Source: Spirosoma sordidisoli
GTDB taxonomy: Bacteria > Bacteroidota > Bacteroidia > Cytophagales > Spirosomataceae
Length of the DNA stretch: 64,000 bases
Direction: 5' to 3'
Assembly: GCF_004138325.1 (NCBI RefSeq)
Contig: NZ_SBLB01000006.1
Coordinates: 310,001-374,000, forward strand
Shown here: positions 13,847 through 44,055 of the stretch, piece after piece
How the letters are laid out: each line of letters begins with the position of its first letter
Numbering within the stretch: the first letter of the stretch is position 1
Notes under the pieces: model-generated
Told to the model about the DNA's origin: nothing
The model's database searches: none
What the model saw: the letters and a program-made list of their open reading frames with translations, nothing else
Made by a program: the position numbers and the translations under genes

Positions 13847-14063
13847 GTGCTTCCGCCCGACCAGCAAGCCCATTATACGTGGCAGAAAGTACAGGAATCA
13901 GCGGCTTTTTGAGGTGAGCCCCTGCGCGGATGATAAACTGGTACAATCTGTGTACGATAGATAGCTGTCGCACCGGGCGGGTTCGGGTTTTACCAAGTCA
14001 TAATCCCTGACTATCTTAGGGCACCTACAAACCAAAGTCCCGCGCCAGGTCGTTATTTACTAG

Positions 14064-16127
14064 ATGAATTTCCTGTATCCCTCGTTCCTGTTCGGCCTGC
14101 TGGCCGTGTCGGTTCCCATTGCCATACACCTGTTTAACTTCCGTCGGACACGCCGGGTGTTTTTCACCAATGTTGCTTTGCTACGGACAGTCCAGACCGA
14201 GACCAAATCGTTTCGGCGGTTGAAGCACTGGCTTATTCTGGCAGCTCGCTGCCTGTTTCTGGCCTGTCTGGTGCTGGCCTTTGCGCAGCCATTCATCCCG
14301 AGCAAAAATCAGCTGGGCTTGTCGCGACAGGGCGTCACGAGCCTGTACGTTGATAACTCGTACAGCATGCAGAACGAGCGGAACGAAAAGCGGTATCTGG
14401 ATATAGCCATTGGCCGACTGGATGAACTCCTGACTCTGTTTCGCAACGCAACGTCGCTGCAGCTGCTGACCAACGACTTTTCGGCCGCCGAACAGCAGGC
14501 AGGCTCTGCCGAAGCCATCCGCGACCGGGTTACGTCGGTTCGCTTTGCCCACACGCCCCGAACCCTCGAAACCGTATACCGGCGGCAGCGTAACCTGCTC
14601 AGCAGCCTGAACCCGGGCGGCCGTAACCAGCTCTTCTGGTTTTCCGATTTCCAGAAAAGTACGGTAGGCGATCTGACCCGGCTGAAACTGGACACTACGG
14701 ACCGGCTCTTCATTGTGCCGCTCGACGCGCAGCCTACCCGAAACGTATACGTTGATTCGGTATGGCTCAGCACGCCATTCATTCGCGAAATGCAGAACAA
14801 CAGCCTGAACGTGAAGCTGACCAACGGCGGCCGCGAGAACGTGAAGAACCTGCCGGTTCGGCTGTACCTCGACGATACGCAGACCTCAACGGCTACGGCC
14901 GTGCTGCCCCCCGGTGGCTCGGCTACGGTGTCTCTCAACTTTAACGTAACGACGAAAGGCTACCACCGCGGCCGGATCGTATTCGAAGATTTCCCCATTA
15001 CATTCGACAACCAGTATTTTTTCGTCATAGAAGCCTCACCCGCCGTTCGGGTACTGCATCTGTTTGAGCAAAAAAGCCCGAAAGACTATGTAGACGCGGT
15101 TTACTCGGATGATAGCCTGTTTGTACGGCGCAGCTTCAGTGCGCTGAACTTCGACGTGGGGCAACTGCGCGAAACGGATCTGGTTGTGCTGGAAGGCGTA
15201 TCGCAGGTCTCGGGTACGCTTCGGTCCGAGCTGGAGCGATTTGTCAGGCAGGGAGGCAGCCTGGCTATCATTCCGCCCGCCACCCCCGATGCGTCGACCT
15301 ATGGGCCGTTCCTAAGCAGCCTGGGTGTAAATGGCGTAAGTACCCTGCCGGCAGAGCAGGCGTCGCGCCCCGTTGCTGACCCCGACCGGCGCAATCCGTT
15401 TTTCCAGGACGTCTTTCAGCAAAGCTACCAGTCCGAGCCGCTGAACATGCCCTCGGCCGCTCCGGTCTGGCGCTGGAGTGCCGGCGAGCGTTTGCTTACC
15501 CTCCGCGACGGAAGCCCGATGCTCACCCAGACCCGGTCCGGGCAGGGCAGCGTATACGTCCTGGGCACGCCCCTGGCAGCTGACTACGGCAACCTGGCCG
15601 AGCATGCGCTGTTCGTTCCGATCATGTATAAGATGGCGGCTCTAAGCGTCCGCTCCCAGCGAACGGCCTATTCGTTCGATGAAAATTTGCTGGCGGTACC
15701 GGTCAGCAACCCAGCGGAGCGGGCCGTTTACAAACTGAAGCGCGACAAGCTGGAGATCATTCCGATTCAGCGCGTTGTGGGGAATCAGCTGCTGCTCGAG
15801 ATGCCCAAGAGCAATGAGCTGGCAACCGGCCAGGAGGTTGAAGCCGGGTATTATGAATTGCAGAACAGCGCGGGCAAGACCGAGCGGCTGCTGGCCTTCA
15901 ACCACGGAAACGCCGAGTCGGCCATGGACTTCTACTCGGCCGATGAGCTGCGTCGGGTATTCGCCAGCCAGCCCAATGTTGAGGTATTCGACAGCATACA
16001 GGATGGCGACTTTGTGCAGGTGCTGGAGCAGGAAAACCTCGGCAAAAGCCTCTGGAAGTACTTTCTGCTGGCCGCTCTGGGCTTCCTGCTGATTGAGGTT
16101 GGTCTGGTTCGGTTTATGAAAGGGTAG
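14064..16127 (+). CDS. BatA-domain membrane protein
   Basis: A 687-residue protein. The first 75 residues match the BatA (aerotolerance regulator) N-terminal domain: a first span (YPSFLFGLLAVSVPIAIHLF), the arginine-rich FNFRRTRRVFFTN segment, then a second span (HWLILAARCLFLACLVLAFA). A von Willebrand-A-like region follows (LYVDNSYSMQNE near residue 95), although the metal site DxSxS reads DNSYS. The middle has an Ig-like portion (VKLTNGGRENVKNLPVRLYLDD) and a glutamine-amidotransferase-like stretch, and one span is near the C-terminus (FLLAALGFLLIEVGLV). Such proteins sit in the inner membrane, often near MoxR/Bat genes, which are absent here. Function unknown. Confidence 0.82.
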   Translation: MNFLYPSFLFGLLAVSVPIAIHLFNFRRTRRVFFTNVALLRTVQTETKSFRRLKHWLILAARCLFLACLVLAFAQPFIPSKNQLGLSRQGVTSLYVDNSYSMQNERNEKRYLDIAIGRLDELLTLFRNATSLQLLTNDFSAAEQQAGSAEAIRDRVTSVRFAHTPRTLETVYRRQRNLLSSLNPGGRNQLFWFSDFQKSTVGDLTRLKLDTTDRLFIVPLDAQPTRNVYVDSVWLSTPFIREMQNNSLNVKLTNGGRENVKNLPVRLYLDDTQTSTATAVLPPGGSATVSLNFNVTTKGYHRGRIVFEDFPITFDNQYFFVIEASPAVRVLHLFEQKSPKDYVDAVYSDDSLFVRRSFSALNFDVGQLRETDLVVLEGVSQVSGTLRSELERFVRQGGSLAIIPPATPDASTYGPFLSSLGVNGVSTLPAEQASRPVADPDRRNPFFQDVFQQSYQSEPLNMPSAAPVWRWSAGERLLTLRDGSPMLTQTRSGQGSVYVLGTPLAADYGNLAEHALFVPIMYKMAALSVRSQRTAYSFDENLLAVPVSNPAERAVYKLKRDKLEIIPIQRVVGNQLLLEMPKSNELATGQEVEAGYYELQNSAGKTERLLAFNHGNAESAMDFYSADELRRVFASQPNVEVFDSIQDGDFVQVLEQENLGKSLWKYFLLAALGFLLIEVGLVRFMKG

Positions 16128-33488: not shown

Positions 33489-33741
33489 ACAGCCGACCAG
33501 CTGACCACGATGCGACCGGGCGTTTGTAATAAACGACCCGGTCGTATTGCGTTTGTACGATAGCCAGTGTAGTGGGCCGGCCCGCTCTGGTGTGGGTAGT
33601 GAGGTAAGTCCGGGCGTCGTCATAACTATCGAAGCCCGTCAGATGGGTACGTTTTTCGGTATGCTGACACGCGATATAGCGGGGCGCCGGCGACGTTGCC
33701 AGCAGCCCGGTAACGCAGAAATCATGGTTCAGGACGCCCAT
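33472..33741 (-). CDS. Small protein overlapping the sigma factor 3' end, unknown
   Basis: An 89-residue open frame starting MGVLNHDFCVTGLL. Its ATG overlaps the end of the sigma factor gene by 13 bases, which allows coupled translation, and its stop overlaps the convergent GIN gene end by 17 bases. The composition (balanced polar residues and a strand-like VYYKRPVASW near the end) looks like a small alpha/beta protein but matches nothing I recognise. It could be an accident of frame; codon use would decide. Confidence 0.4.
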   Translation of the reverse strand: MGVLNHDFCVTGLLATSPAPRYIACQHTEKRTHLTGFDSYDDARTYLTTHTRAGRPTTLAIVQTQYDRVVYYKRPVASWSAGRLFSFFL

Positions 33742-34283
33742 AGTGATGCTTCGCAAAGGGTACGAACTTTATCGCGCGACCGTTTCAGGCGCATTTTCAC
33801 GGCACTCTCTTTCAGGTTCAGCTTTTTGGCAATCTGAAGCACATCCAGCCCTTCCTGATACTTCATCCGCAGAATCAGCGCTTCCTGCGGAGCAATAGAC
33901 TCCATGGCTTTGGCCAGCTGCTGCAGGTTATTTTCAGCACTCTCACCGTCAGCCGACTGCGCTACGGCGTATTCGGTTTCCTGATCCAGACCGGTTGTGG
34001 CCAGCCGGTTCGACCGCTTGATCTGATCGATGCAGTAGTTGTAGGAGATCGAATAAAGCCAGGTTGAAAACGACGACCGCTCTTGAAAACGATCCAGGTG
34101 AGCAAACATGCGCAGGAAAATATCATGAGTATAATCCTGGGCCTGCTCCGAATTTTTTGTCATGGAATAACATCTGTTGTATACCTTGCGTACATATCGG
34201 TTATACAACAGCTCAAAACACTCGTTAGGGTTAGTATTACGGTACTGACGAATAACTTCTTCGTCATTCAATGCTGGTTTCAT
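33729..34283 (-). CDS. RNA polymerase sigma-70 family factor (ECF type)
   Basis: A 184-residue sigma factor. Region 2 is visible in ECFELLYNRYVRKVYNRCYSMTKN and AQDYTHDIFLRMFAHLDRF, with the WLYSISYNYCIDQIKR segment, and region 4 in APQEALILRMKYQEGLDVLQIAKKLNLKESAVKMRLKRSRDKVR. No anti-sigma gene is adjacent, unlike many Bacteroidota ECF factors, although a small overlapping frame follows. It is divergent from the H-NOX/NOS operon across 243 AT-rich bases, so it may share regulation with it or even control it. Confidence 0.93.
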   Translation of the reverse strand: MKPALNDEEVIRQYRNTNPNECFELLYNRYVRKVYNRCYSMTKNSEQAQDYTHDIFLRMFAHLDRFQERSSFSTWLYSISYNYCIDQIKRSNRLATTGLDQETEYAVAQSADGESAENNLQQLAKAMESIAPQEALILRMKYQEGLDVLQIAKKLNLKESAVKMRLKRSRDKVRTLCEASLWAS

Positions 34284-34526
34284 ACGTTTGGAAGTGGTAG
34301 AAGTTTTGGGGTAGTTGACTTAAGTACTTTCTTGTTCTTTGATGACCCAAATTTGATCTTACTGTTATAGTTTGTGGCCAATTATTCGATGAACTGTACC
34401 GTTTTGCCGATTTTTGGAAAACCTAAGTCGATATTCCATTCTAATTTGTAATTATTTCATCTAATAATTTTATAATTTGTTACCCATATTGGTATATTGC
34501 TAAGGTTTTAATCTCACTGCTTGTAC
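34284..34526. promoter_or_regulatory. AT-rich divergent intergenic region between sigma factor and H-NOX genes
   Basis: 243 bases, strikingly AT-rich between about 34370 and 34510 compared with the genes around it. It must hold the promoter of the NO operon and that of the sigma gene. No perfect TAnnTTTG occurs in either direction; near misses on the plus strand are TAATTTG at about 34443 and 34472. Several GTT half-sites that might suit a LytTR regulator occur, but none forms a convincing direct repeat. Confidence 0.5.
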
Positions 34527-35066
34527 ATGAAAGGAATTGTATTTACGGAACTTTTAGAAATGGTTGAGGACCAGTATGGTTACGCGCTGGTAGACACCAT
34601 ATTAGACCAAAGTAATCTTCCTTCCGGAGGCATTTATACGGCCATTGGCACGTATGATCATGGCGAGATGGTTACTTTGCTGCACAGTCTTAGCCAGCAT
34701 ACCACTACCCCTGTTCCAGAGCTCCTGCGCGCGTATGGCCGGTACATGTTTGGCTCCTTCACCCGCAATTATTACCAGTTTATCGAGCGATCTACCTCTG
34801 CCTTTAGTTTACTAAACTCCATTCAGCATTACATTCATGTTGAAGTGAGAAAACTATATCCGGATGCGGAGTTGCCCCACTTCGCCATGGAGCAGCCTTC
34901 AGAAAACCACCTGAAGATGTATTACCAGTCGGAGCGGAAACTATCAGATTTCGCCTATGGTCTGATCGAAGGGTGTCTGGCTCATTATGGAGAAACCGCC
35001 ACCATCCGGAAAACGGAGCTGACCCCCGATGGCAGTCAGGTTTTGTTCGACATCGTGAAAGACTAA
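34527..35066 (+). CDS. H-NOX haem nitric oxide/oxygen-binding sensor protein
   Basis: A 179-residue stand-alone H-NOX domain. It begins MKGIVFTELLEMVEDQYG as the family does. The proximal haem ligand is His104 (IHVEVRKLYPDAELP) and the haem-propionate motif Y-x-S-x-R is Tyr133-Gln-Ser135-Glu-Arg137. Such proteins bind NO with very high affinity; NO breaks the iron-histidine bond and the changed protein inhibits or activates a partner kinase. The frame extends six bases to a TTG, but the ATG at 34527 is the natural start. A hybrid histidine kinase gene starts 4 bases after the stop, a regulator and the NOS gene follow, so its ligand is very likely NO made by the same operon. Confidence 0.95.
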   Translation: MKGIVFTELLEMVEDQYGYALVDTILDQSNLPSGGIYTAIGTYDHGEMVTLLHSLSQHTTTPVPELLRAYGRYMFGSFTRNYYQFIERSTSAFSLLNSIQHYIHVEVRKLYPDAELPHFAMEQPSENHLKMYYQSERKLSDFAYGLIEGCLAHYGETATIRKTELTPDGSQVLFDIVKD

Positions 35067-35070
35067 GCGT

Positions 35071-37200
35071 ATGCCCGACAACGACATAGACCTGATCAAA
35101 AGGCGGTTGGCGCGGGAAAAAGCAGCCCGTTTGCAGGCAGAGGCCATACTTGAAAAAAAAGCGCTGGCCCTCTATAATGCCAACAACCAGCTCCAGCACC
35201 TCAACGACCACCTCGAACAGCAGGTGCGCGACAAGCTGGGCGAGCTGGAGCAGAGCGAACAACGCTATCGGCAACTGATCGAATCGGTACAGGACATCAT
35301 CTATAAAATTTCGCCCAGGGGGTATTTCACATTCGTCAGCCCGGTGGTCGAGAAATCGCTCGGCTATACCGAAGCGGAATTTGTCGGTACGCATTTTACG
35401 CGCTTCGTCGATGACGACTACCGCAAACCCCTGACCGATTTTTACCTGGCCATGATGACCGAAGGCCAGGATAGTACCTACAACGAGTTTCCGATTCGGT
35501 CAAAAGACGGTCGCCACGTCTGGATTGGTCAGACCGTGCGGCCGATTACGGTCGATGGTCAGATCGTAGAACTGGTAGCCGTGGCTCGTGACGTATCGGA
35601 CCGCAAACTGGCCGAACAGGAGCTGGCCAAGGCCCGTCAGGTAGCCGAAGAAGCCCAACGGGCCGAAAAACAGTTTCTGACCAACATGAGCCATGAGATC
35701 AGAACGCCCCTCAACGCCATCATCGGGATGTCGCACCTGCTGTTCGATACGCAGCCAACCCGCCAGCAACGCGAATACATCGATATCCTGAAGACGTCGG
35801 CCGACTTTCTGCACAGCCTGATTTCTGACCTGCTCGACATGACCAAAATCGAAGCAGGCCGCATTGAAGTGAGTCCGCGCCCCTTCGATCTGGCGGGGCT
35901 GCTGCGGGCTACCCAGAAGGTATTCGAGATCAAGCTGCACAACCGGCCCGTTACCATCGACGTGATGCACGACGCCCGTATTTCGGGCGATTTTATCGGC
36001 GACGATGTCATGCTGAACCAGATTCTGATGAACCTGATCGGCAACGCCGAAAAATTCACGGAAGAAGGCAGTATTCAGATCACCGCCCGGATTGTACAGG
36101 AAGACGACAACCGCTGCTGGATCGAGTTCAGCGTGACCGATACGGGCGTCGGCATCCCGGAAGACAAGCAGGGTCTGATTTTCAAGAAGTTCAGACAGGT
36201 AAATCCGCAGGGACACAAGTACAAGGGAACGGGGCTCGGCCTGGCCATCACCAAAGAACTGGTCGAGATTCAGGAAGGAACCATCAGCGTCAGAAGCCAG
36301 AACGGACAGGGAAGTACCTTTACGTTCAAATTGCCCTACGTCCGCGCCACGGCCACGACCGACAATCGGGATGCTGGCAACCCCGTTCTGAAGACGGTGG
36401 GTAAACTGCCCGTCAGCCACGTTATGGTCGTTGAAGACAACCTGATGAACCAGACCTATATCGGCAGTCTGCTCACCAAGTGGAAAATTCCGTTCACGCT
36501 GGCATCGGACGGCAAAAAAGCCGTTGAGGAAGCCAAACAGCAGCGGTTCGACATGATCCTGATGGATATTCAGATGCCGATCATGGACGGCTACGAAGCC
36601 ACCGTGGCCATCCGGAGTACCCACAACCCCAACCAGCACGTACCCATCATCGCCCTGACAGCCTCCGCCATGCTCGATCACAAAAGCCTGGCGATGGAAG
36701 TAGGCATGAACGACTTCCTGACCAAGCCTTTTGAGCCGAGTCAGCTGCTGAACATACTGGAGCGATACGCCCCAACGGCCGCGTCGGAAGCCGCCCCCCG
36801 TAAATCAGACCCTTCGGTTAAGCCGAAACCCACCTTACCGGCCGATGATGTCCTGGACCGGCAGCGCTTGTTCGAACTATACGGTTCGGATAAAGAGCAT
36901 GCCGCCGAAATGTTCGCCACGTTTCTGGACGATGTGGTGCCTGAATTACTCCAGTTACCTGACCTTTGTACCGACCAGAACTGGTCAATGCTGGCTTCTA
37001 TGGCCCATAAGCTGAAACCAACGCTGGGTATGGTGGGCCTGTCGAGACTGGAAGATGAACTCCGTCAGATTGAACGGGGCCTGGGCCAGAACATTGATAA
37101 AGAGCCGCTGGTGCAACGTTGTCAGGCGCTGGTCGAAGAGGTTACGGACCTGTTGCCGGTCTTACGGAACGAGATAAAAACGCTTTCTCCAAAAGCTTAA
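35071..37200 (+). CDS. Hybrid sensor histidine kinase with PAS, receiver and HPt domains
   Basis: A 709-residue cytoplasmic kinase without membrane spans. Order: N-terminal coiled coil (about 5-65, with REKAARLQAEAILEKKALALY, a type common in H-NOX-linked kinases), PAS domain (about 70-190), HisKA with phospho-acceptor His208 in NMSHEIRTPLN, HATPase (N box NQILMNLIGNAEKF, G1 DTGVGI, G2 GTGLGLAI), receiver with Asp499 in LMDIQMPIMDG, and a C-terminal HPt with His646 in MAHKLKPTLG. It holds a complete His-Asp-His relay and can pass phosphate to the regulator encoded 3 bases downstream. The H-NOX protein encoded just upstream is the likely input; the PAS domain may add a second signal. Confidence 0.95.
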   Translation: MPDNDIDLIKRRLAREKAARLQAEAILEKKALALYNANNQLQHLNDHLEQQVRDKLGELEQSEQRYRQLIESVQDIIYKISPRGYFTFVSPVVEKSLGYTEAEFVGTHFTRFVDDDYRKPLTDFYLAMMTEGQDSTYNEFPIRSKDGRHVWIGQTVRPITVDGQIVELVAVARDVSDRKLAEQELAKARQVAEEAQRAEKQFLTNMSHEIRTPLNAIIGMSHLLFDTQPTRQQREYIDILKTSADFLHSLISDLLDMTKIEAGRIEVSPRPFDLAGLLRATQKVFEIKLHNRPVTIDVMHDARISGDFIGDDVMLNQILMNLIGNAEKFTEEGSIQITARIVQEDDNRCWIEFSVTDTGVGIPEDKQGLIFKKFRQVNPQGHKYKGTGLGLAITKELVEIQEGTISVRSQNGQGSTFTFKLPYVRATATTDNRDAGNPVLKTVGKLPVSHVMVVEDNLMNQTYIGSLLTKWKIPFTLASDGKKAVEEAKQQRFDMILMDIQMPIMDGYEATVAIRSTHNPNQHVPIIALTASAMLDHKSLAMEVGMNDFLTKPFEPSQLLNILERYAPTAASEAAPRKSDPSVKPKPTLPADDVLDRQRLFELYGSDKEHAAEMFATFLDDVVPELLQLPDLCTDQNWSMLASMAHKLKPTLGMVGLSRLEDELRQIERGLGQNIDKEPLVQRCQALVEEVTDLLPVLRNEIKTLSPKA

Positions 37201-37203
37201 TCG

Positions 37204-37896
37204 ATGAGCTTGACATGTATCATTGTAGATGACGAGCTGATGGCGCGGAACGCGTTGCAGCGCATGTGCGAACAGCACGAGGCCCTGAGCGTGGTCGGTA
37301 CCTTTGCCGGCGCAGCACCAGCGCTGGATTACCTGGCCGAACACAGCGTTGACCTGATCTGGCTCGATGTTGAAATGCCGGATTTGTCAGGCTTCGGACT
37401 GCTCGAACAGCTGTCGTCTATTCCGCTGGTGGTGCTCACCACCAGCAAGACCGAGTATGCCTACGATGCGTACCAGTATCAGGTAACCGACTACCTGAAG
37501 AAGCCAATTACCCTGCCCCGGTTTAAAATTGCCGTGGAGCGGGCGCTGGAACTGGGTGTGCGTAATCGGCCAACGGTATCGCAGGATCGGCAGGAAATTT
37601 ACATCAAAACCGACGGGCGCTATATCCGGCTCCCGTTCGAAACCATCGCTTATATTGAGAATATGGGCGACTACGTCAAGATCTTCACCACGACACAAAC
37701 CTATATTGTGTACGCTACCATGAAGTATATCGAGGAGAAGCTGGGCCCACAGTTTCTGCGGGTTCATCGATCGTATATCGTTCACCTCGACAAGATCGTG
37801 GATATCGAAGAGAATACGCTGGTTATTCAAAACAAGGTAATTCCAATCAGTCGGGCCAACAAGTCCGAACTGATGAACCGGCTGAACCTGTTATGA
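37204..37896 (+). CDS. LytTR-family response regulator
   Basis: A 230-residue regulator. The receiver has the acidic pair Asp9-Asp10, the phosphorylation site Asp55 in LIWLDVEMPDLSG, the switch residue in LTTSKTEYAYDAY, and Lys in YLKKPI. The LytTR DNA-binding domain covers about 130-230 (KTDGRYIRLPFETIAYIENMGDY split by the strand turn, and FLRVHRSYIVHLDKI). It should accept phosphate from the HPt domain of the kinase encoded immediately upstream and bind DNA as a dimer at direct repeats. Its targets probably include this operon, since NOS is the next gene, but no clear binding site was found. Confidence 0.95.
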   Translation: MSLTCIIVDDELMARNALQRMCEQHEALSVVGTFAGAAPALDYLAEHSVDLIWLDVEMPDLSGFGLLEQLSSIPLVVLTTSKTEYAYDAYQYQVTDYLKKPITLPRFKIAVERALELGVRNRPTVSQDRQEIYIKTDGRYIRLPFETIAYIENMGDYVKIFTTTQTYIVYATMKYIEEKLGPQFLRVHRSYIVHLDKIVDIEENTLVIQNKVIPISRANKSELMNRLNLL

Positions 37897-37942
37897 CTGA
37901 TCAACGACGCCTGCCGACTCCATTAAACTCAATATACTTACG

Positions 37943-40900
37943 ATGAATACTTTCTCCGTTCATGATCCGGCTCACTCCCGTGGTCCTGACCTTGCCCCGG
38001 CAACGGTCTCTGCCATTCAGGATGAGCTGGCGGCCATGCCGCTCCTGACTGCTCCCGAAAAGGTACTTGTTAAGGATGTATGGAATAAATTCCTGGCTTT
38101 TCAGGACATGCTTGTCGAGCTGTTCTTCGAACGGCTCCTGCACGAGAACCCCGACCTGGCCGATCGGCTGGGCGATTCGGTCGATCTGGTTCCGGGTTAT
38201 TTTGCGCAGCTGTTCGACCAGAGCGTGCGGCAGCTGATCCCGCAAACGGAGCGTATCCTGCGCGAGAGTTACCGGGGTGTATACCCGTCTCAACCGGCTC
38301 ATCATCAGCCGATCGATCAGCAGATAGCGCTCCTGACCGACCTGGGTATGCGCCCCGTTCACTGGATTTCCGCCCGCCGGGTGTGGATGTGGACCATTGC
38401 TCAGGTACCGCACCTCGAAGACTATGACCGGGATAACATAGCGCGGGGCAACGAATCGGCTTTTTACCGCTTTTTCTCGCTTCATTTACTTCCCACGGCT
38501 TTCGACGTCGATCGGGCCTATGCCAGCATGCTGACGCCAGACATGGTACAGGTCATGCGGAAAAGCTGCGAGATTATGGCGGCCAACGCACTGTCCACCG
38601 GTACGGAGTTTTACCAGGAGCTGTTTCAGACCCAGCCCGATCTGCTGCCCTATTTCGGCCGTACCGACGTAGACGGGCTGGCCGAACACCTGATGCATAC
38701 GCTGGTGTTTCTGACGCGCTCGCTCGAAGCAGGCCGGGATGTAGCGACGGAGCTCCGCGACCTGGGCCGTACCCACCTGCGGGCCGGCATTCCGCCGGAG
38801 GCCTATCCTAAACTGGTGGCCCCCATGCTGGCGGTTATGAAACGGCATCTGCCCAACTTCTCTGCCGAACAGGAGCAGGCCTGGTCGATGCTCCTCATCC
38901 GGGTGAGCCATGTGCTGCAGCAGCCCATGATCAGCGTACAGCGGCTACTGGCCTCGGCCCGCGAGTTTATTGACCAGCTGGCCGCCGAGCTGGAGTGGAC
39001 CCAGGCCGACCGGATTCGGCGGTGGGGCGAAGTGGAACGGGAAATCAGGGCAACGGGTACCTACACGCAGACCTACGACGAACTGTCGTACGGGGCGCAG
39101 CTGGCCTGGCGAAACGCCACCAAATGCATCGGGCGCATCTCGTGGCGGAACATGCTGGTTCGGGATATGCGGCACGTGAACGACCCCGACGCGATGTTCC
39201 GCGAGTGCGTCGAACACATGCGTCTGGCTACCAACGGCGGCATTATTCAGACCGTGATGACCGTTTTCCGCCCCAAAAAACCCGCCGAACGCTGGGGGCC
39301 GCGCATCTGGAACAGCCAGTACGTCCGGTTTGCGGCTTACGAGCAACCCGACGGCTCGATACTGGGCGACCCCGCCAACCTGAAACTCACCCAGGCCATT
39401 GTGCGGCAGGGCTGGACTCCCCCGGCCGACAAAACAGCCTTCGATTATCTGCCGCTGGTCATCGACGTACCCGGTCAGCAGCCGCGTCTGTATTCGTTTC
39501 AACCCGACGATGTGCTGCGGGTAACGCTCGAACACCCGCAGTACCCGGCGTTTGATGCCCTCAACCTGCAATGGTGTGCGGTTCCGGCCATTACCAATTT
39601 CCGGCTCGACATCGGGGGCGTACAGTACGGTTGTGTGCCGTTCAACGGCTGGTTTATGGAAACCGAAATTGCCCGCAACCTCTGGGAAGAAGGCCGCTAC
39701 AACCTGGCCGAACCCATTGCCCGCAGCTTCAACCTGGACACCTCCAGCGCGCTCTGGCACGACCGCGCCTTTCTGGAGCTGAACGCAGCCGTACTGCATT
39801 CCTTCACCAAAGCCCGGGTTACGCTGGTCGATCACCAGACGGCCGCCCGCCAGTTTATGACCCACGATCAGCGCGAAAAACGAGCCGGGCGCGAGTGCCC
39901 GGCCCAGTGGTCGTGGGTGGTGCCGTCGGCCGGCGGCAGTACTACGCCCGTCTGGCACCACGAAATGCGGGATTTCTACCTGAACCCCAGCTTCCACTAC
40001 GCGGCCGACCGCTGGTCGGTCATTGACGATCAGTACGTCATGGCTGATGATCACGTCATGGCCTCGACACCCGTAGCGCAGCGGCTGCTCATTCTGTACG
40101 GATCGGAAACCGGCACGTCTGAAAGCTATGCCCACCAGACCGCCCGCCGGCTGAGTCGATACCATCCGCGGGTTATGGCGCTCGACGAATACGATCTGAC
40201 TCAACTCCCTCAGGAACAGTGGCTGCTGATTATTTCATCCACGTTCCGAAAAGGAGAGCTACCGGCCAACGCCCAGCGCTTTTATACCCAGATCAGACAG
40301 TTGCCCGATGGAGCCCTCAGCAAGCTTCATTTTGCGGTACTGGCTCTGGGCAATACCGTTTATCCGCACTTCTGCGCTGCCGGCATCATGCTGGACCAGC
40401 AGCTGGCCCGGCTGGGTGCTAACCGGGCAGCCGCCCTGCACAAAGCCGATGAAATCAACGGCCAGGCCGCTACTTTCCGGCAATGGCTGGGTCTGGTAGC
40501 CCGCTTGCTGGGCGAAGATCCGAGCCGATCGACCGAGGAGCAGACTAGCCGGGCCGACTGGAAACTTCAGGTGTCGTTCGTTGACGCGGAGCATGTCGAT
40601 AGCGCCGAGACGGATAAGCGGCTCCATCGCCACCCCGGCGTCGACGTGCCCGTCATCACCAACCGCGAACTGCTTAAGGAGGTGATTGTAGGCAGCCGGT
40701 CTACCCGTTTCATTGCCTTCGATATTTCAGAGACCGGCCTTACCTACGAAACCGGCGACCACGTTGTCATTTACCCGCACAACCCACCCGAACTGGTGGA
40801 GCGGATTTGCCGCCAGATCAACGTAGACGCCGACGCCTATTTTTACACCTCCCTGACAACCCCGGAAGGAGCCGACGTCCTGGGCGATCATACGTACCCG

Positions 40901-42055
40901 GCTCCGGTGCGGGTAGGCGACGTGCTGATCAAAGACCTCGATCTGTCACTCCGCGAACCGTACGACGAGCTTGTCGATGCCTTGCTGGCGGCCGCCCAGA
41001 ACCCGGCCGAACGCGCCATGCTGGCGAGCTGGAGTGAACTGCTGAACCGCGACGAGTATGACGCCGATGGGCAGGCCCTCAAAAAACACATGGCAGACGC
41101 GTTTATGAGCGTCTGCGATTTGCTGGATGCGTTTCCGTCGGCACCGCTCACGTTTGGTCAGCTCATTGAGCTGCTACCCCGCCAGCGCCCCCGCCTGTAC
41201 TCGATTTCGTCCTGCTCACTGGTGTACCCGACCGAGATCCACGTTACGGTTGGGGTTGTGCAGATCACCACCGACGAAGGTTATACCCGACCAGGTTTGT
41301 GTTCCAACTACCTGGCCCGGCTAACCACGGGTGATCATGTCAGACTATCGGTACGCACCTCCAACTTCCGCCCCCCGCGCGATCCGCAGGCGCCGATGCT
41401 CATGGTCGGACCTGGTACGGGCCTGTCGCCCCTGGTTGGTTTTCTGCAGCACCGCGAAGTACAGCTCCGCATGCTCCGGCAGGCGCAGCAGTCGGCCAGC
41501 GGTCATACCCTGTCCGATGCGCCGTCGGCTACGCTCAAATACCCCGGCAGCCCGCTGCTGAAAGCCCGGAACGGTCGGCCTAAAACCGGCTGGAGCTCGG
41601 CCCGGCCGGGCGAAACCCGCCTGTTTTTCGGCTGCCGCAACCTGAACGACTACCTCTACCAGCAGGAACTGGAAACCTGGCACGAAGAAGGCATCCTGAC
41701 CCACCTCGACGTTGCCTTTTCCCGACTGGGCGAAGACCGCATCTACGTACAGGATTTGATGGGACGGCAGGGAGCCGCTATATGGGAGGTGCTATCGCAG
41801 CCCGATTGCCACTACTATGTCTGCGGAGACGCCAAGATGGCCGATGATGTATTTGCCGTTCTGCTGAATGTGGCCCGCACGTATGGCGGCCTGTCGGCTA
41901 CCGAAGCGGTCGAGTTTTTCAGGACCATGCAGCACGAAAACCGCTTCTTCATGGACGTCTGGGGGGTATTGCTCAACTTCAAACAGTCGATGGCCGAAGT
42001 GCAGGCCGCCAAGTATACGCAGGGAGAACGCTGGTTAATGGATCGAATCGGGTAA
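37943..42055 (+). CDS. Nitric oxide synthase with two globin domains and a fused diflavin reductase
   Basis: A 1370-residue protein making NO and citrulline from L-arginine. About 30-175: globin-like domain lacking histidine at the expected proximal position (DLGMRP, Pro138; His140 is two residues on). About 195-335: second globin with proximal His278 in DLGRTHLRAGI. About 345-695: NOS oxygenase with haem thiolate Cys395 (WRNATKCIGRISW), arginine-binding Glu575 (GWFMETEIARN) and pterin-site WSW in CPAQWSWVVP. About 712-850: flavodoxin (Y719GSETGT). About 885-1370: FAD domain (R1084LYS) and NADPH site (VG1156PGTG). The roughly 20-residue linker before the flavodoxin shows no calmodulin-binding helix. 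The globins may oxidise NO to nitrate, as proposed for the Synechococcus PCC 7335 globin-NOS. Fourth gene of the H-NOX operon. Confidence 0.96.
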   Translation: MNTFSVHDPAHSRGPDLAPATVSAIQDELAAMPLLTAPEKVLVKDVWNKFLAFQDMLVELFFERLLHENPDLADRLGDSVDLVPGYFAQLFDQSVRQLIPQTERILRESYRGVYPSQPAHHQPIDQQIALLTDLGMRPVHWISARRVWMWTIAQVPHLEDYDRDNIARGNESAFYRFFSLHLLPTAFDVDRAYASMLTPDMVQVMRKSCEIMAANALSTGTEFYQELFQTQPDLLPYFGRTDVDGLAEHLMHTLVFLTRSLEAGRDVATELRDLGRTHLRAGIPPEAYPKLVAPMLAVMKRHLPNFSAEQEQAWSMLLIRVSHVLQQPMISVQRLLASAREFIDQLAAELEWTQADRIRRWGEVEREIRATGTYTQTYDELSYGAQLAWRNATKCIGRISWRNMLVRDMRHVNDPDAMFRECVEHMRLATNGGIIQTVMTVFRPKKPAERWGPRIWNSQYVRFAAYEQPDGSILGDPANLKLTQAIVRQGWTPPADKTAFDYLPLVIDVPGQQPRLYSFQPDDVLRVTLEHPQYPAFDALNLQWCAVPAITNFRLDIGGVQYGCVPFNGWFMETEIARNLWEEGRYNLAEPIARSFNLDTSSALWHDRAFLELNAAVLHSFTKARVTLVDHQTAARQFMTHDQREKRAGRECPAQWSWVVPSAGGSTTPVWHHEMRDFYLNPSFHYAADRWSVIDDQYVMADDHVMASTPVAQRLLILYGSETGTSESYAHQTARRLSRYHPRVMALDEYDLTQLPQEQWLLIISSTFRKGELPANAQRFYTQIRQLPDGALSKLHFAVLALGNTVYPHFCAAGIMLDQQLARLGANRAAALHKADEINGQAATFRQWLGLVARLLGEDPSRSTEEQTSRADWKLQVSFVDAEHVDSAETDKRLHRHPGVDVPVITNRELLKEVIVGSRSTRFIAFDISETGLTYETGDHVVIYPHNPPELVERICRQINVDADAYFYTSLTTPEGADVLGDHTYPAPVRVGDVLIKDLDLSLREPYDELVDALLAAAQNPAERAMLASWSELLNRDEYDADGQALKKHMADAFMSVCDLLDAFPSAPLTFGQLIELLPRQRPRLYSISSCSLVYPTEIHVTVGVVQITTDEGYTRPGLCSNYLARLTTGDHVRLSVRTSNFRPPRDPQAPMLMVGPGTGLSPLVGFLQHREVQLRMLRQAQQSASGHTLSDAPSATLKYPGSPLLKARNGRPKTGWSSARPGETRLFFGCRNLNDYLYQQELETWHEEGILTHLDVAFSRLGEDRIYVQDLMGRQGAAIWEVLSQPDCHYYVCGDAKMADDVFAVLLNVARTYGGLSATEAVEFFRTMQHENRFFMDVWGVLLNFKQSMAEVQAAKYTQGERWLMDRIG

Positions 42056-42060
42056 TTTTG
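42053..42060 (+). promoter_or_regulatory. purK: Possible -7 element for purK overlapping the NOS stop codon
   Basis: TAATTTTG matches the TAnnTTTG consensus; its first three bases are the NOS stop codon. It lies 25 bases before the purK start. No TTG at the -33 spacing. Confidence 0.4.
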
Positions 42061-42085
42061 CCCACTCATTCATCCGTTCACGCTC

Positions 42086-43222
42086 TTGACACCGACTCTC
42101 GGAATTCTGGGCGGAGGGCAGCTGGGCCTTATGCTCCTGCAAGCCGCCATTGACTGGAACCTGCGTGTGCACGTGCTCGACCCCGACGCCGACGCACCCT
42201 GCCGCCATTTATGTACTCAATTCAACACCGGCTCCCTGACCGACTACGATACCGTGTATCAGTTCGGTCAGGGAGTCGATGTGCTGACGATTGAGATTGA
42301 ACGCGTTAATGTAGACGCCCTCGAAGCCCTCGAACGCGAAGGAAAGCGCGTATACCCGCAGCCCGCCGTCATCCGCGTCATTCAGGATAAACGACTTCAG
42401 AAACAGTTCTACCGCGACAATAACCTGCCCACGGCCGACTTTACCCTGACCGACAACCGCGCTGACGCCATCCGGCAGATCAGCCAGAACCCGGCGTTAC
42501 TGCCCGCCTTTCATAAACTCGGCCGCGACGGGTACGACGGGCGGGGCGTTCAGCGGATCGCTACCGCAGCTGACGCCGACAAAGCCTTCGATGCGCCGGG
42601 CGTACTCGAAAAAGCAGTCGACTTCGAAAAAGAGCTGGCCGTTATCGTGGCCCGTAATGAACGGGGCGACGTGCAGACGTTCCCGACGGTAGAGATGGTC
42701 TTTCATCCAGAGCTGAACCTGGTCGAGTACCTCTTCGCCCCCGCCGAAATTACCACCGATATAGACCGGCAGGCGCAGGCCATAGCCCGCCAGACGGCCG
42801 ATGCGTTTGGCATTGTTGGGCTGCTGGCGGTTGAGCTGTTTCTCGACAAAGCCGGTAACGTACTCATCAACGAAGTAGCGCCCCGGCCCCACAACAGCGG
42901 TCATCATACCATCCAGGCCAACGTAACCTCGCAGTTTGAACAACACTGGCGGGCCATTCTGAACTACCCCCTGGGTAACACCGATGCCTACCAGCCAGCC
43001 GCCATGCTCAACCTGCTGGGCGAAGACGGGCATACCGGCCCGGCGCGCTACGAAGGACTCGAAACGCTGCTGACCATGCCGGGGGTGTTCCCCTTCTTTT
43101 ACGGCAAAGCCATTACCAAGCCGTTCCGGAAGATGGGCCACGTCACGGTTATGGACGCCGACATGGACACCCTTCGCCAGAAAGTATCGGCTGTGAAAAC
43201 GGGAATCCGGGTAGTGACCTAG
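42086..43222 (+). CDS. purK: N5-carboxyaminoimidazole ribonucleotide synthase
   Basis: A 378-residue ATP-grasp enzyme of purine synthesis that carboxylates AIR with bicarbonate and ATP. It opens with [20 protein letters not shown]; the ATP-grasp region includes [26 protein letters not shown], and the metal-site motif [16 protein letters not shown]. The start is TTG at 42086, as no ATG or GTG is found before the conserved N-terminus. Its stop overlaps by 4 bases the stop of the convergent FAH-family gene. Its usual partner purE is not adjacent. Confidence 0.95.
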
Positions 43223-44055
43223 GCTACCCGGTTGGTCAGCGTTCCGATTCCGTCAATGGTAATGCGAACCTCATCCTGGCTGGCCAGGGTAAAATCGTCG
43301 GGCGGAACGATACCGGTGCCGGTCATGAGGTAGCAGCCGTTCGGAAACGAGCACTCCCGAAACAGAAACGAAACCAGTTCGTTATGCTGACGCTTCATCT
43401 GGTTGATGGCAATACGGTTGCTGAAAACAGGCTGACCCGCCCGGAGAATGTCCAGCTGTATCTGCGAATCGGGCGCGATGGGCGATTCCGGCACGTACAG
43501 ACAAGGCCCGAGAGCCGCGCTGCCGTCGTAGGTTTTGGCCTGCGGCAGGTAAAGCGGATTTTCGCCCTCGATGCTGCGCGAGCTCATGTCGTTACCGCAG
43601 GTATAGCCAACAATCGCACCCGAGGAGGTCATGAACAGGGTTAGTTCGGGCTCCGGCACATTCCAGGTCGAATCGGCCCGGATCCGGACGGCGTCGCCCG
43701 GCCCCACAACACGCTCGGCCGTAGATTTAAAAAACAGTTCGGGCCGCTCAGCGTCGTAGACCCGGTCGTAGAAATTATCGCCCCCCGACTTTTTCGACTC
43801 TTCCATCCGGGCATCGCGGCTCCGCAGGTAGGTTACGCCCGAGGCCCATACCTCCTGCCGTCCGATGGGAGCCAGCAGGTCGGTTTCGGCCCACTGCTGG
43901 TACTCGTCCGATGGCGTGTTCTGGGTGGTATACTGACGCAGTACGGTATAGAGGTCGTCCTGGTTGACGAGTTCGTCCCAGTCCGTAATGGGGAGGTGAT
44001 AATACTGCTGCTGATCGCTCAGCACGATGCCGGAGCGGGTTTTATACAGATGCAT
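43219..44055 (-). CDS. Fumarylacetoacetate hydrolase (FAH) family protein
   Basis: A 278-residue protein of the FAH superfamily. The metal and active-site motifs appear as [14 protein letters not shown], then [31 protein letters not shown] split over two strands, and [15 protein letters not shown]. Members hydrolyse C-C bonds or hydrate/decarboxylate keto acids in sugar-acid or aromatic breakdown; the [19 protein letters not shown] form is common in the subgroup linked to sugar-acid (2-keto-3-deoxy) pathways. It faces purK convergently and has no pathway neighbours here. Confidence 0.88.

Follow-up and report, generated by a model that had tools for sequence, protein, structure and literature searches.

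The stretch analysed here, referred to below as the window, consists of 64,000 nucleotides of the 7.37-Mb genome of Spirosoma sordidisoli (contig NZ_SBLB01000006.1, positions 310,001 to 374,000). It includes a cluster of four genes coding for a stand-alone H-NOX sensor, a hybrid histidine kinase, a LytTR response regulator, and a multidomain nitric oxide (NO) synthase (NOS). The initial annotation of this DNA described the genes as lying in line on the same strand with gaps of 4, 3, and 46 bases, and the coordinates of the open reading frames confirm this arrangement. Absent from that annotation were a divergent gene for an extracytoplasmic function (ECF) sigma factor and a conserved 33-base element, both of which belong to the module, as well as the globin and pseudoglobin regions at the N-terminus of the NOS. 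The features are collected in Table 1.

Table 1. Features of the NOS/H-NOX cluster and its divergent flank in the window.
Feature	Position	Strand	Description
ECF sigma factor gene, divergent from the operon	33729..34283	-	184 residues; Pfam Sigma70_r2/r4_2
-7-like element CAAATTTG for the ECF gene	34348..34355	-	similar box in related modules (see text)
33-base element TTCGATGAACTGN5TTTNNCCGNTTTTTGG, candidate LytTR operator	34385..34417	.	conserved across 21 modules
H-NOX (haem NO sensor, stand-alone)	34527..35066	+	179 residues; HNOB E=4.6e-42 (Pfam)
PAS-HisKA-HATPase-REC-HPt hybrid kinase	35071..37200	+	709 residues; Pfam and alignment
REC-LytTR response regulator	37204..37896	+	230 residues; Pfam and alignment
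Multidomain globin-type NOS	37943..42055	+	1370 residues; Pfam, alignment, phmmer to PDB 9q05
NOS pseudoglobin region	38000..38527	+	about residues 20-195; collinear with the non-haem pseudoglobin of syNOS
NOS haem globin	38528..38917	+	about residues 196-325; Pfam Globin 222-325; aligned to flavohaemoglobin at 196-322
NOS oxygenase domain	38939..40015	+	PF02898 residues 333-691; haem Cys395, Ile550 in VPAI motif
NOS flavodoxin, FAD and NADPH reductase domains	40091..41962	+	Pfam

The H-NOX reading frame is open from a TTG at position 34521, and the ATG at 34527, which gives the 179-residue protein, agrees with its relatives. It has the HNOB domain, the proximal His, and the Tyr-x-Ser-x-Arg motif by which H-NOX proteins are recognized, and the haem ligands named in the initial annotation (His104 and Tyr133/Ser135/Arg137) are present and invariant in 13 aligned sequences, the window included. 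The nearest solved relatives are 6ocv and 6bde. The distal position is occupied by Phe142, as it is by a Phe in 6ocv. We take this position to be the site of the distal Tyr that permits O2 binding in other H-NOX proteins, and its replacement by Phe suggests that the sensor may be selective for NO. Outside the cluster the same genome carries a second H-NOX gene (L096, C5) and a degraded third (L097, C2), and another member of the family (G167, locus L101) has three H-NOX genes inside 19 kb, one of them ahead of a kinase with an HNOBA domain that is followed by a LytTR gene.

As in other H-NOX/histidine kinase pairs, a kinase with HisKA, HATPase, and receiver domains adjoins the H-NOX gene; its Pfam matches comprise PAS, HisKA, HATPase_c, Response_reg, and Hpt. 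The phosphorelay residues proposed initially hold up in the alignments, His208, Asp499, and the HPt His646 in 13 kinases and Asp55 of the regulator, which combines REC and LytTR domains with a phospho-acceptor Asp, in 14 sequences. The kinases of the window and of locus L022 lack about 250 amino acids that are present in the other 11 of the 13 and that consist of further PAS domains in the relatives scanned.

The product of the fourth gene matches the NO_synthase family with E=9e-142, and its Pfam flavodoxin, FAD, and NAD domains bear out the claim that this NOS has its own reductase. A single chain that unites globin, oxygenase, flavodoxin, FAD, and NADPH parts, it is a globin-type multidomain NOS. 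His278 and Phe238 of the globin, presumably its F8 and CD1 residues, are invariant in 12 NOS. Cys395, which by known NOS motifs we take to be the haem ligand, is likewise invariant in the 12 aligned proteins, and by its place in the VPAI motif we equate Ile550 with a position at which an Ile/Val exchange distinguishes SyNOS. The closest known enzyme is syNOS, also written SyNOS, of Synechococcus PCC 7335 (PDB 9q05; PMC6104048, PMC12922734). It likewise combines a pseudoglobin, a haem globin, an oxygenase, a flavodoxin, and FAD/NADPH parts within a single polypeptide, and it is said to carry Ile where others have Val (PMC6104048). Residues 20 to 330 of the window NOS match syNOS across both the pseudoglobin and the haem globin (phmmer E=2e-73), the best aligned stretch covers residues 20 to 1173, and the borders between pseudoglobin and globin given in Table 1 were taken from PMC12922734.

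Unlike syNOS, the window NOS has no Ca2+-responsive N-terminal C2 domain. Nine of the 12 aligned NOS have about 150 extra residues at the N-terminus, which those of the window, L022, and L027 do not share; the extra residues of L015 match the C2 domain of 9q05 (E=1e-5). The six-domain syNOS type was rejected for the window NOS because the alignment shows no such region, and the enzyme is therefore without the part that gives syNOS its Ca2+ response. The window and its near relative L022 are thus shortened in two genes at once, the kinase lacking the further PAS domains and the NOS lacking the C2 part. Among the 12 aligned NOS these two also share a longer stretch in the NADPH-binding part (41492-41618, about residues 1184-1225).

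A survey of 222 genomes of the family detected NOS (PF02898) in 14, every one of them a Spirosoma, and H-NOX (PF07700) in 53, including all 14 with NOS. The order H-NOX, kinase, LytTR, NOS is kept in all 14 NOS-bearing genomes; the genes are contiguous and on one strand in 13, and in the other (G205) the cluster is divided over two contigs whose pieces are consistent with the same order. Since the order is kept in every NOS-bearing genome of the 222, it represents more than a chance arrangement. The NOS of one relative, G190, is 97.5% identical to the window NOS. The outer flanks of the cluster vary among groups of these genomes, and the gap between the LytTR and NOS genes measures 25-46 bases in six of the 14 loci and 154-312 bases in eight. 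In the window purK starts 30 bases 3' of the NOS gene, and it was not counted in the unit because it is found at the same place in only two (L018 and L022) of the 12 NOS-bearing relatives with visible 3' DNA; L024, which ends within NOS, could not be used for this count.

Rfam and tRNA scans of the window gave no match. A sigma-70 and terminator scan found 7 promoter-like sequences (4.3 in shuffles) and 15 terminator-like sequences (8.1 in shuffles), and this result was left unused since the models were not built for Bacteroidota. Among plasmid records 121 matched the NOS query, none covering 80% of it; no NOS plasmid was seen, because the 40 matches listed were limited to the reductase part.

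Within 20 further H-NOX stretches taken from the family, seven, each from a different genome, have the order ECF, H-NOX, kinase, LytTR without a NOS gene. Six are from Spirosoma (L090-L095) and one is from another genus (L106). In a tree of the three relay proteins the six Spirosoma modules form one clade (100/100), and the tree requires two changes of NOS state that may be gains or losses. Since the module also occurs without NOS in these genomes, NOS either joined it or was lost from it; that is, the sensor-kinase-regulator module may be older than its link to NOS or may have outlived NOS.

An ECF homologue is located beside the H-NOX gene in 19 of the 21 modules, counting the window; in L016 it is in two frames and in L019 none was found. 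We consider this sigma factor the probable transcriptional output of the relay. In the DNA between the two divergent genes, the 33-base element is kept in the 21 modules while most other intergenic DNA fails to align. It is weak in L015, L016, and L019, which form a clade that includes both ECF losses. The element has a single match in the S. sordidisoli genome at up to three mismatches (reversed control, 0) and did not occur in 100 shuffles of the window, and the 15-base core taken by itself is no more frequent in the window than chance allows (one occurrence, 0.92 expected). The consensus of the Bacteroidota -7 element is TAnnTTTG, and in 18 of the 21 modules a sequence resembling CAAANNTG, which we interpret as a -7 box directed towards the ECF gene, is found 34-39 bases off the element. 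This near-fixed spacing is directly observed, and element and box are kept in modules with NOS and without NOS alike. We regard the element as a candidate operator through which LytTR may control the ECF gene.

A looser form of the pattern matched 48 times in 35 genomes, compared with 8 times for its reversed control; 19 of the 48 matches are at H-NOX modules and 29 elsewhere, and in the S. sordidisoli genome there was one match and one control match. With these numbers, exclusive association of the element with this operon was rejected for the genus. From the off-module sites 16 of the 29, picked mainly for few mismatches, were inspected: seven precede ECF paralogues (60-66% identity), six precede members of a family of proteins of about 100 residues, one precedes a related kinase without H-NOX, and two precede none of these. 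The -7-like box is found at 11 of the 16, 36-37 bases from the element, and a profile search placed LytTR-domain genes near three. The roughly 100-residue proteins, whose genes start near the element (L130, L134, L138, L139, L140, and L142), have a hydrophobic C-terminus, and the one member scanned had no Pfam family above cut-off. At L129 (3001-6032, genome G216) a perfect element precedes a related PAS-hybrid kinase (51% identity) by about 220 bases.

Loci in other lineages came from a scan of one genome per species (84,980 species) with two exact peptide patterns, which is not a census and did not reach cyanobacterial NOS loci. It returned 41 loci: seven from Spirosoma, 12 with a globin-type NOS outside Spirosoma (eight Rhodobacteraceae and four Myxococcota), and 22 others. 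A NOS was counted as globin-type when its match extended into the N-terminal part of the NOS query; among five such proteins scanned, Pfam reported Globin for L035, L036, and L037 but not for L040 or L042. In Rhodobacteraceae the H-NOX gene is divergent from NOS, head to head, in all six loci that are readable, with no contig end interrupting them (L035, L037, L038, L039, L041, and L045; L036 and L043 were not judged), and in the same six a HisKA-HATPase-REC kinase gene follows H-NOX. At L041 a REC-GGDEF gene (13986-14909) stands beside NOS, with H-NOX and the kinase on the other side, an arrangement that resembles the diguanylate cyclase target described for Silicibacter. Three of the four Myxococcota genomes with a globin-type NOS carry H-NOX elsewhere in the genome.

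The globin-type oxygenases form one clade (100/100), in which Spirosoma is placed beside Rhodobacteraceae (99/96); the row of this tree numbered L110 and labelled 'oxyonly' is the L036 gene. The G+C content is 0.60-0.61 over the NOS gene and 0.59 at 42001-44000, compared to 0.49 at 34001-36000. High G+C over NOS, together with a NOS clade otherwise found in Rhodobacteraceae and Myxococcota, may mean a horizontal origin. The H-NOX proteins of the Spirosoma type and those of Rhodobacteraceae are not one clade according to an approximately unbiased (AU) test (p=4e-8), NOS-less modules falling inside the group. A narrower AU clade test gave p=6e-45; it left the NOS-less Spirosoma modules outside, which itself favours rejection. 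Since the two H-NOX settings are not one clade, the NOS/H-NOX pairing would have arisen or been rebuilt at least twice: either NOS joined two different H-NOX relays, or it kept its place while H-NOX was replaced. Under either history the presence of two distinct H-NOX clades beside NOS points to a functional tie.

Outside Spirosoma the scan also found H-NOX in 11 of the 12 genomes with a globin-type NOS and in none of the 22 other NOS genomes. This co-occurrence was set aside as evidence, and adjacency used instead, because H-NOX is common in the family to which G223, a Rhodobacteraceae genome, belongs: it was present in 86 of 120 genomes sampled there. A second sample of that family had NOS in two of 345 genomes. 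Among 395 Bacteroidota genomes NOS was detected in 12, two of them Spirosoma, and H-NOX in none of the other 10; two of these 10 share identical oxygenase rows with two of the 22 other NOS genomes.

Parts of this system have precedents. The Spirosoma linguale globin NOS is named in PMC6104048 and PMC7400543 and was retrieved in PMC4648414. NOS and H-NOX together were detected earlier in an alphaproteobacterial lineage, which PMC5563961 credits to Rao et al. 2015, so the remark in the initial annotation that no system with this complete gene set was known needs correcting as far as NOS and H-NOX in one bacterium are concerned. Silicibacter sp. TrichCH4B resembles Spirosoma in having NOS and H-NOX/kinase in one bacterium (PMC5563961, PMC9500659, PMC8738867), and its NOS is cited for signalling biofilm formation (PMC9500659). 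The target of the Silicibacter pathway is a diguanylate cyclase (PMC8738867), whereas the output in Spirosoma is LytTR and probably the ECF sigma factor; neither GGDEF nor EAL domains, which would indicate a cyclic di-GMP output, were found in the four proteins or in five neighbours scanned. The H-NOX/histidine kinase systems of Shewanella and Vibrio also have an H-NOX gene with a kinase partner (PMC8738867), but Spirosoma differs in its LytTR output and in having a NOS gene within the operon. For the Microscilla bins, Bacteroidetes with H-NOX and NOS, the passage of PMC5563961 on them states co-presence and no operon. An H-NOX relay is encoded alongside the window NOS and may set it apart from syNOS. 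In the open-licence literature we found no description of a four-gene operon with LytTR/ECF output, or of a Spirosoma with H-NOX, and the papers there that name both H-NOX and LytTR do not, in the parts available, describe such a system; NO has been reported to act on AgrA directly through cysteines (PMC6769237).

A mechanism can be proposed for the cluster. NO would bind to the H-NOX haem and alter the state of the adjoining hybrid kinase, phosphate would pass from His208 through Asp499 and His646 to Asp55 of the LytTR regulator, and the regulator would act at the 34385-34417 element, switching the ECF sigma gene and probably its own operon. The NOS oxygenase would make NO from arginine and the NOS globin would destroy it, so that the enzyme would set the NO level read by H-NOX. 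NO binding, phosphotransfer, and catalysis are what the protein families lead one to expect; that LytTR binds to the element, which sign the response has, and that the usual signal is NO made by the cell itself and not NO from outside are at this point our conjecture. We give about even odds to the view that the cluster forms one regulatory unit that responds to NO and contains both a source and a sink for it. The stricter reading is a closed NO circuit, in which the H-NOX reads NO from the C2-less globin NOS encoded in its own operon and the signal passes through the phosphorelay and LytTR to the divergent ECF gene, source, sink, receptor, and transcriptional output being co-inherited. We consider this reading possible but less likely than not. 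Of the autocrine loop put forward in the initial annotation, the part that stands is that the four genes are a conserved unit, as the 14 NOS-bearing genomes show, and the functional tie is backed by the second NOS/H-NOX adjacency in Rhodobacteraceae; that H-NOX reads endogenous NO, and that the loop is quorum-like, are conjectures.

Several observations weigh against a simple source-to-sensor loop or against the unit as proposed, and some of them bear on other explanations. The globin of syNOS oxidises NO to nitrate (PMC12922734), and the window NOS has a globin of its own; the relay without NOS exists in seven genomes of the family. Both facts would suit a relay that senses outside NO, from plant, amoeba, or denitrifying neighbours, as a threat to detoxify, the NOS being kept mainly for feedback and for NO dioxygenase activity of its globin and reductase. 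The S. sordidisoli genome has no flavohaemoglobin above the NF009805 cut-off, the sole match to the globin part falling in this NOS (other NO sinks were outside the search), and for this reason the NOS globin is a candidate for the NO dioxygenase of the cell. A bare flavohaemoglobin would suffice for such a task, yet Cys395, Glu573/Glu575, and Trp656/Trp658 of the oxygenase are kept in 12 of 12 NOS, and we regard the explanation by outside NO as a serious but somewhat unlikely one. The SyNOS-like globin, oxygenase, and reductase parts also recall the proposal made for SyNOS that arginine is converted to nitrate for nitrogen use (PMC6104048), in which case the H-NOX relay would merely hold free NO low. 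This idea is weakened because the genome has no assimilatory NirB above the family cut-off, so that the cell is less likely to reuse nitrate (the search did not extend to nitrate reductase or to other nitrite reductases), and we give it very little credence.

The NOS could also be a passenger downstream of an existing NO relay, separately controlled and without a functional tie to it. The gap of 154-312 bases between LytTR and NOS in eight of the 14 loci leaves space for a separate NOS promoter, one Spirosoma clade has the relay without NOS, and at L025 (6164-6702, genome G200) the H-NOX gene is in two frames, as a broken gene or a sequencing error, with an uninterrupted NOS gene in that operon. 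The higher G+C over NOS than at 34001-36000 fits as well, though the DNA at 42001-44000 is also high. Against a passenger stand the gene order, preserved in all 14 genomes even though the flanks differ between groups, and the second case of adjacency, which involves the other H-NOX clade of the Rhodobacteraceae; we hold it to be improbable. Like the NOS-less modules, the wide LytTR-NOS gaps, and the H-NOX in two frames, the following points count against the unit as proposed. None of the four Myxococcota globin-type NOS loci has H-NOX within the flank examined, and the H-NOX tree carries a long-branch warning. The perfect element in G216, which has neither H-NOX nor NOS, shows that the element is not exclusive to the relay. 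The element core, CAGTTCATCGAA, when read as its reverse complement, fits the LytTR consensus exactly in only 10 of the 21 modules, and an exact consensus was consequently rejected as proof of an operator.

To our knowledge, it is still debatable where the NO sensed by bacterial H-NOX proteins comes from and what multidomain bacterial NOS are for. In Spirosoma H-NOX and NOS are joined in one conserved operon of cultured bacteria, a genus not known to include pathogens; the cluster also offers a candidate operator and an output gene that can be monitored, and relatives with or without NOS and with or without the C2 part provide natural controls. The pairing of a Rhodobacteraceae NOS with a different H-NOX indicates that the association is no one-off accident. 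The Spirosoma cluster is therefore a good test case for bacterial self-signalling by NO and, if the closed NO circuit is true, it would be a self-contained bacterial counterpart of the animal pair of NOS and soluble guanylate cyclase.

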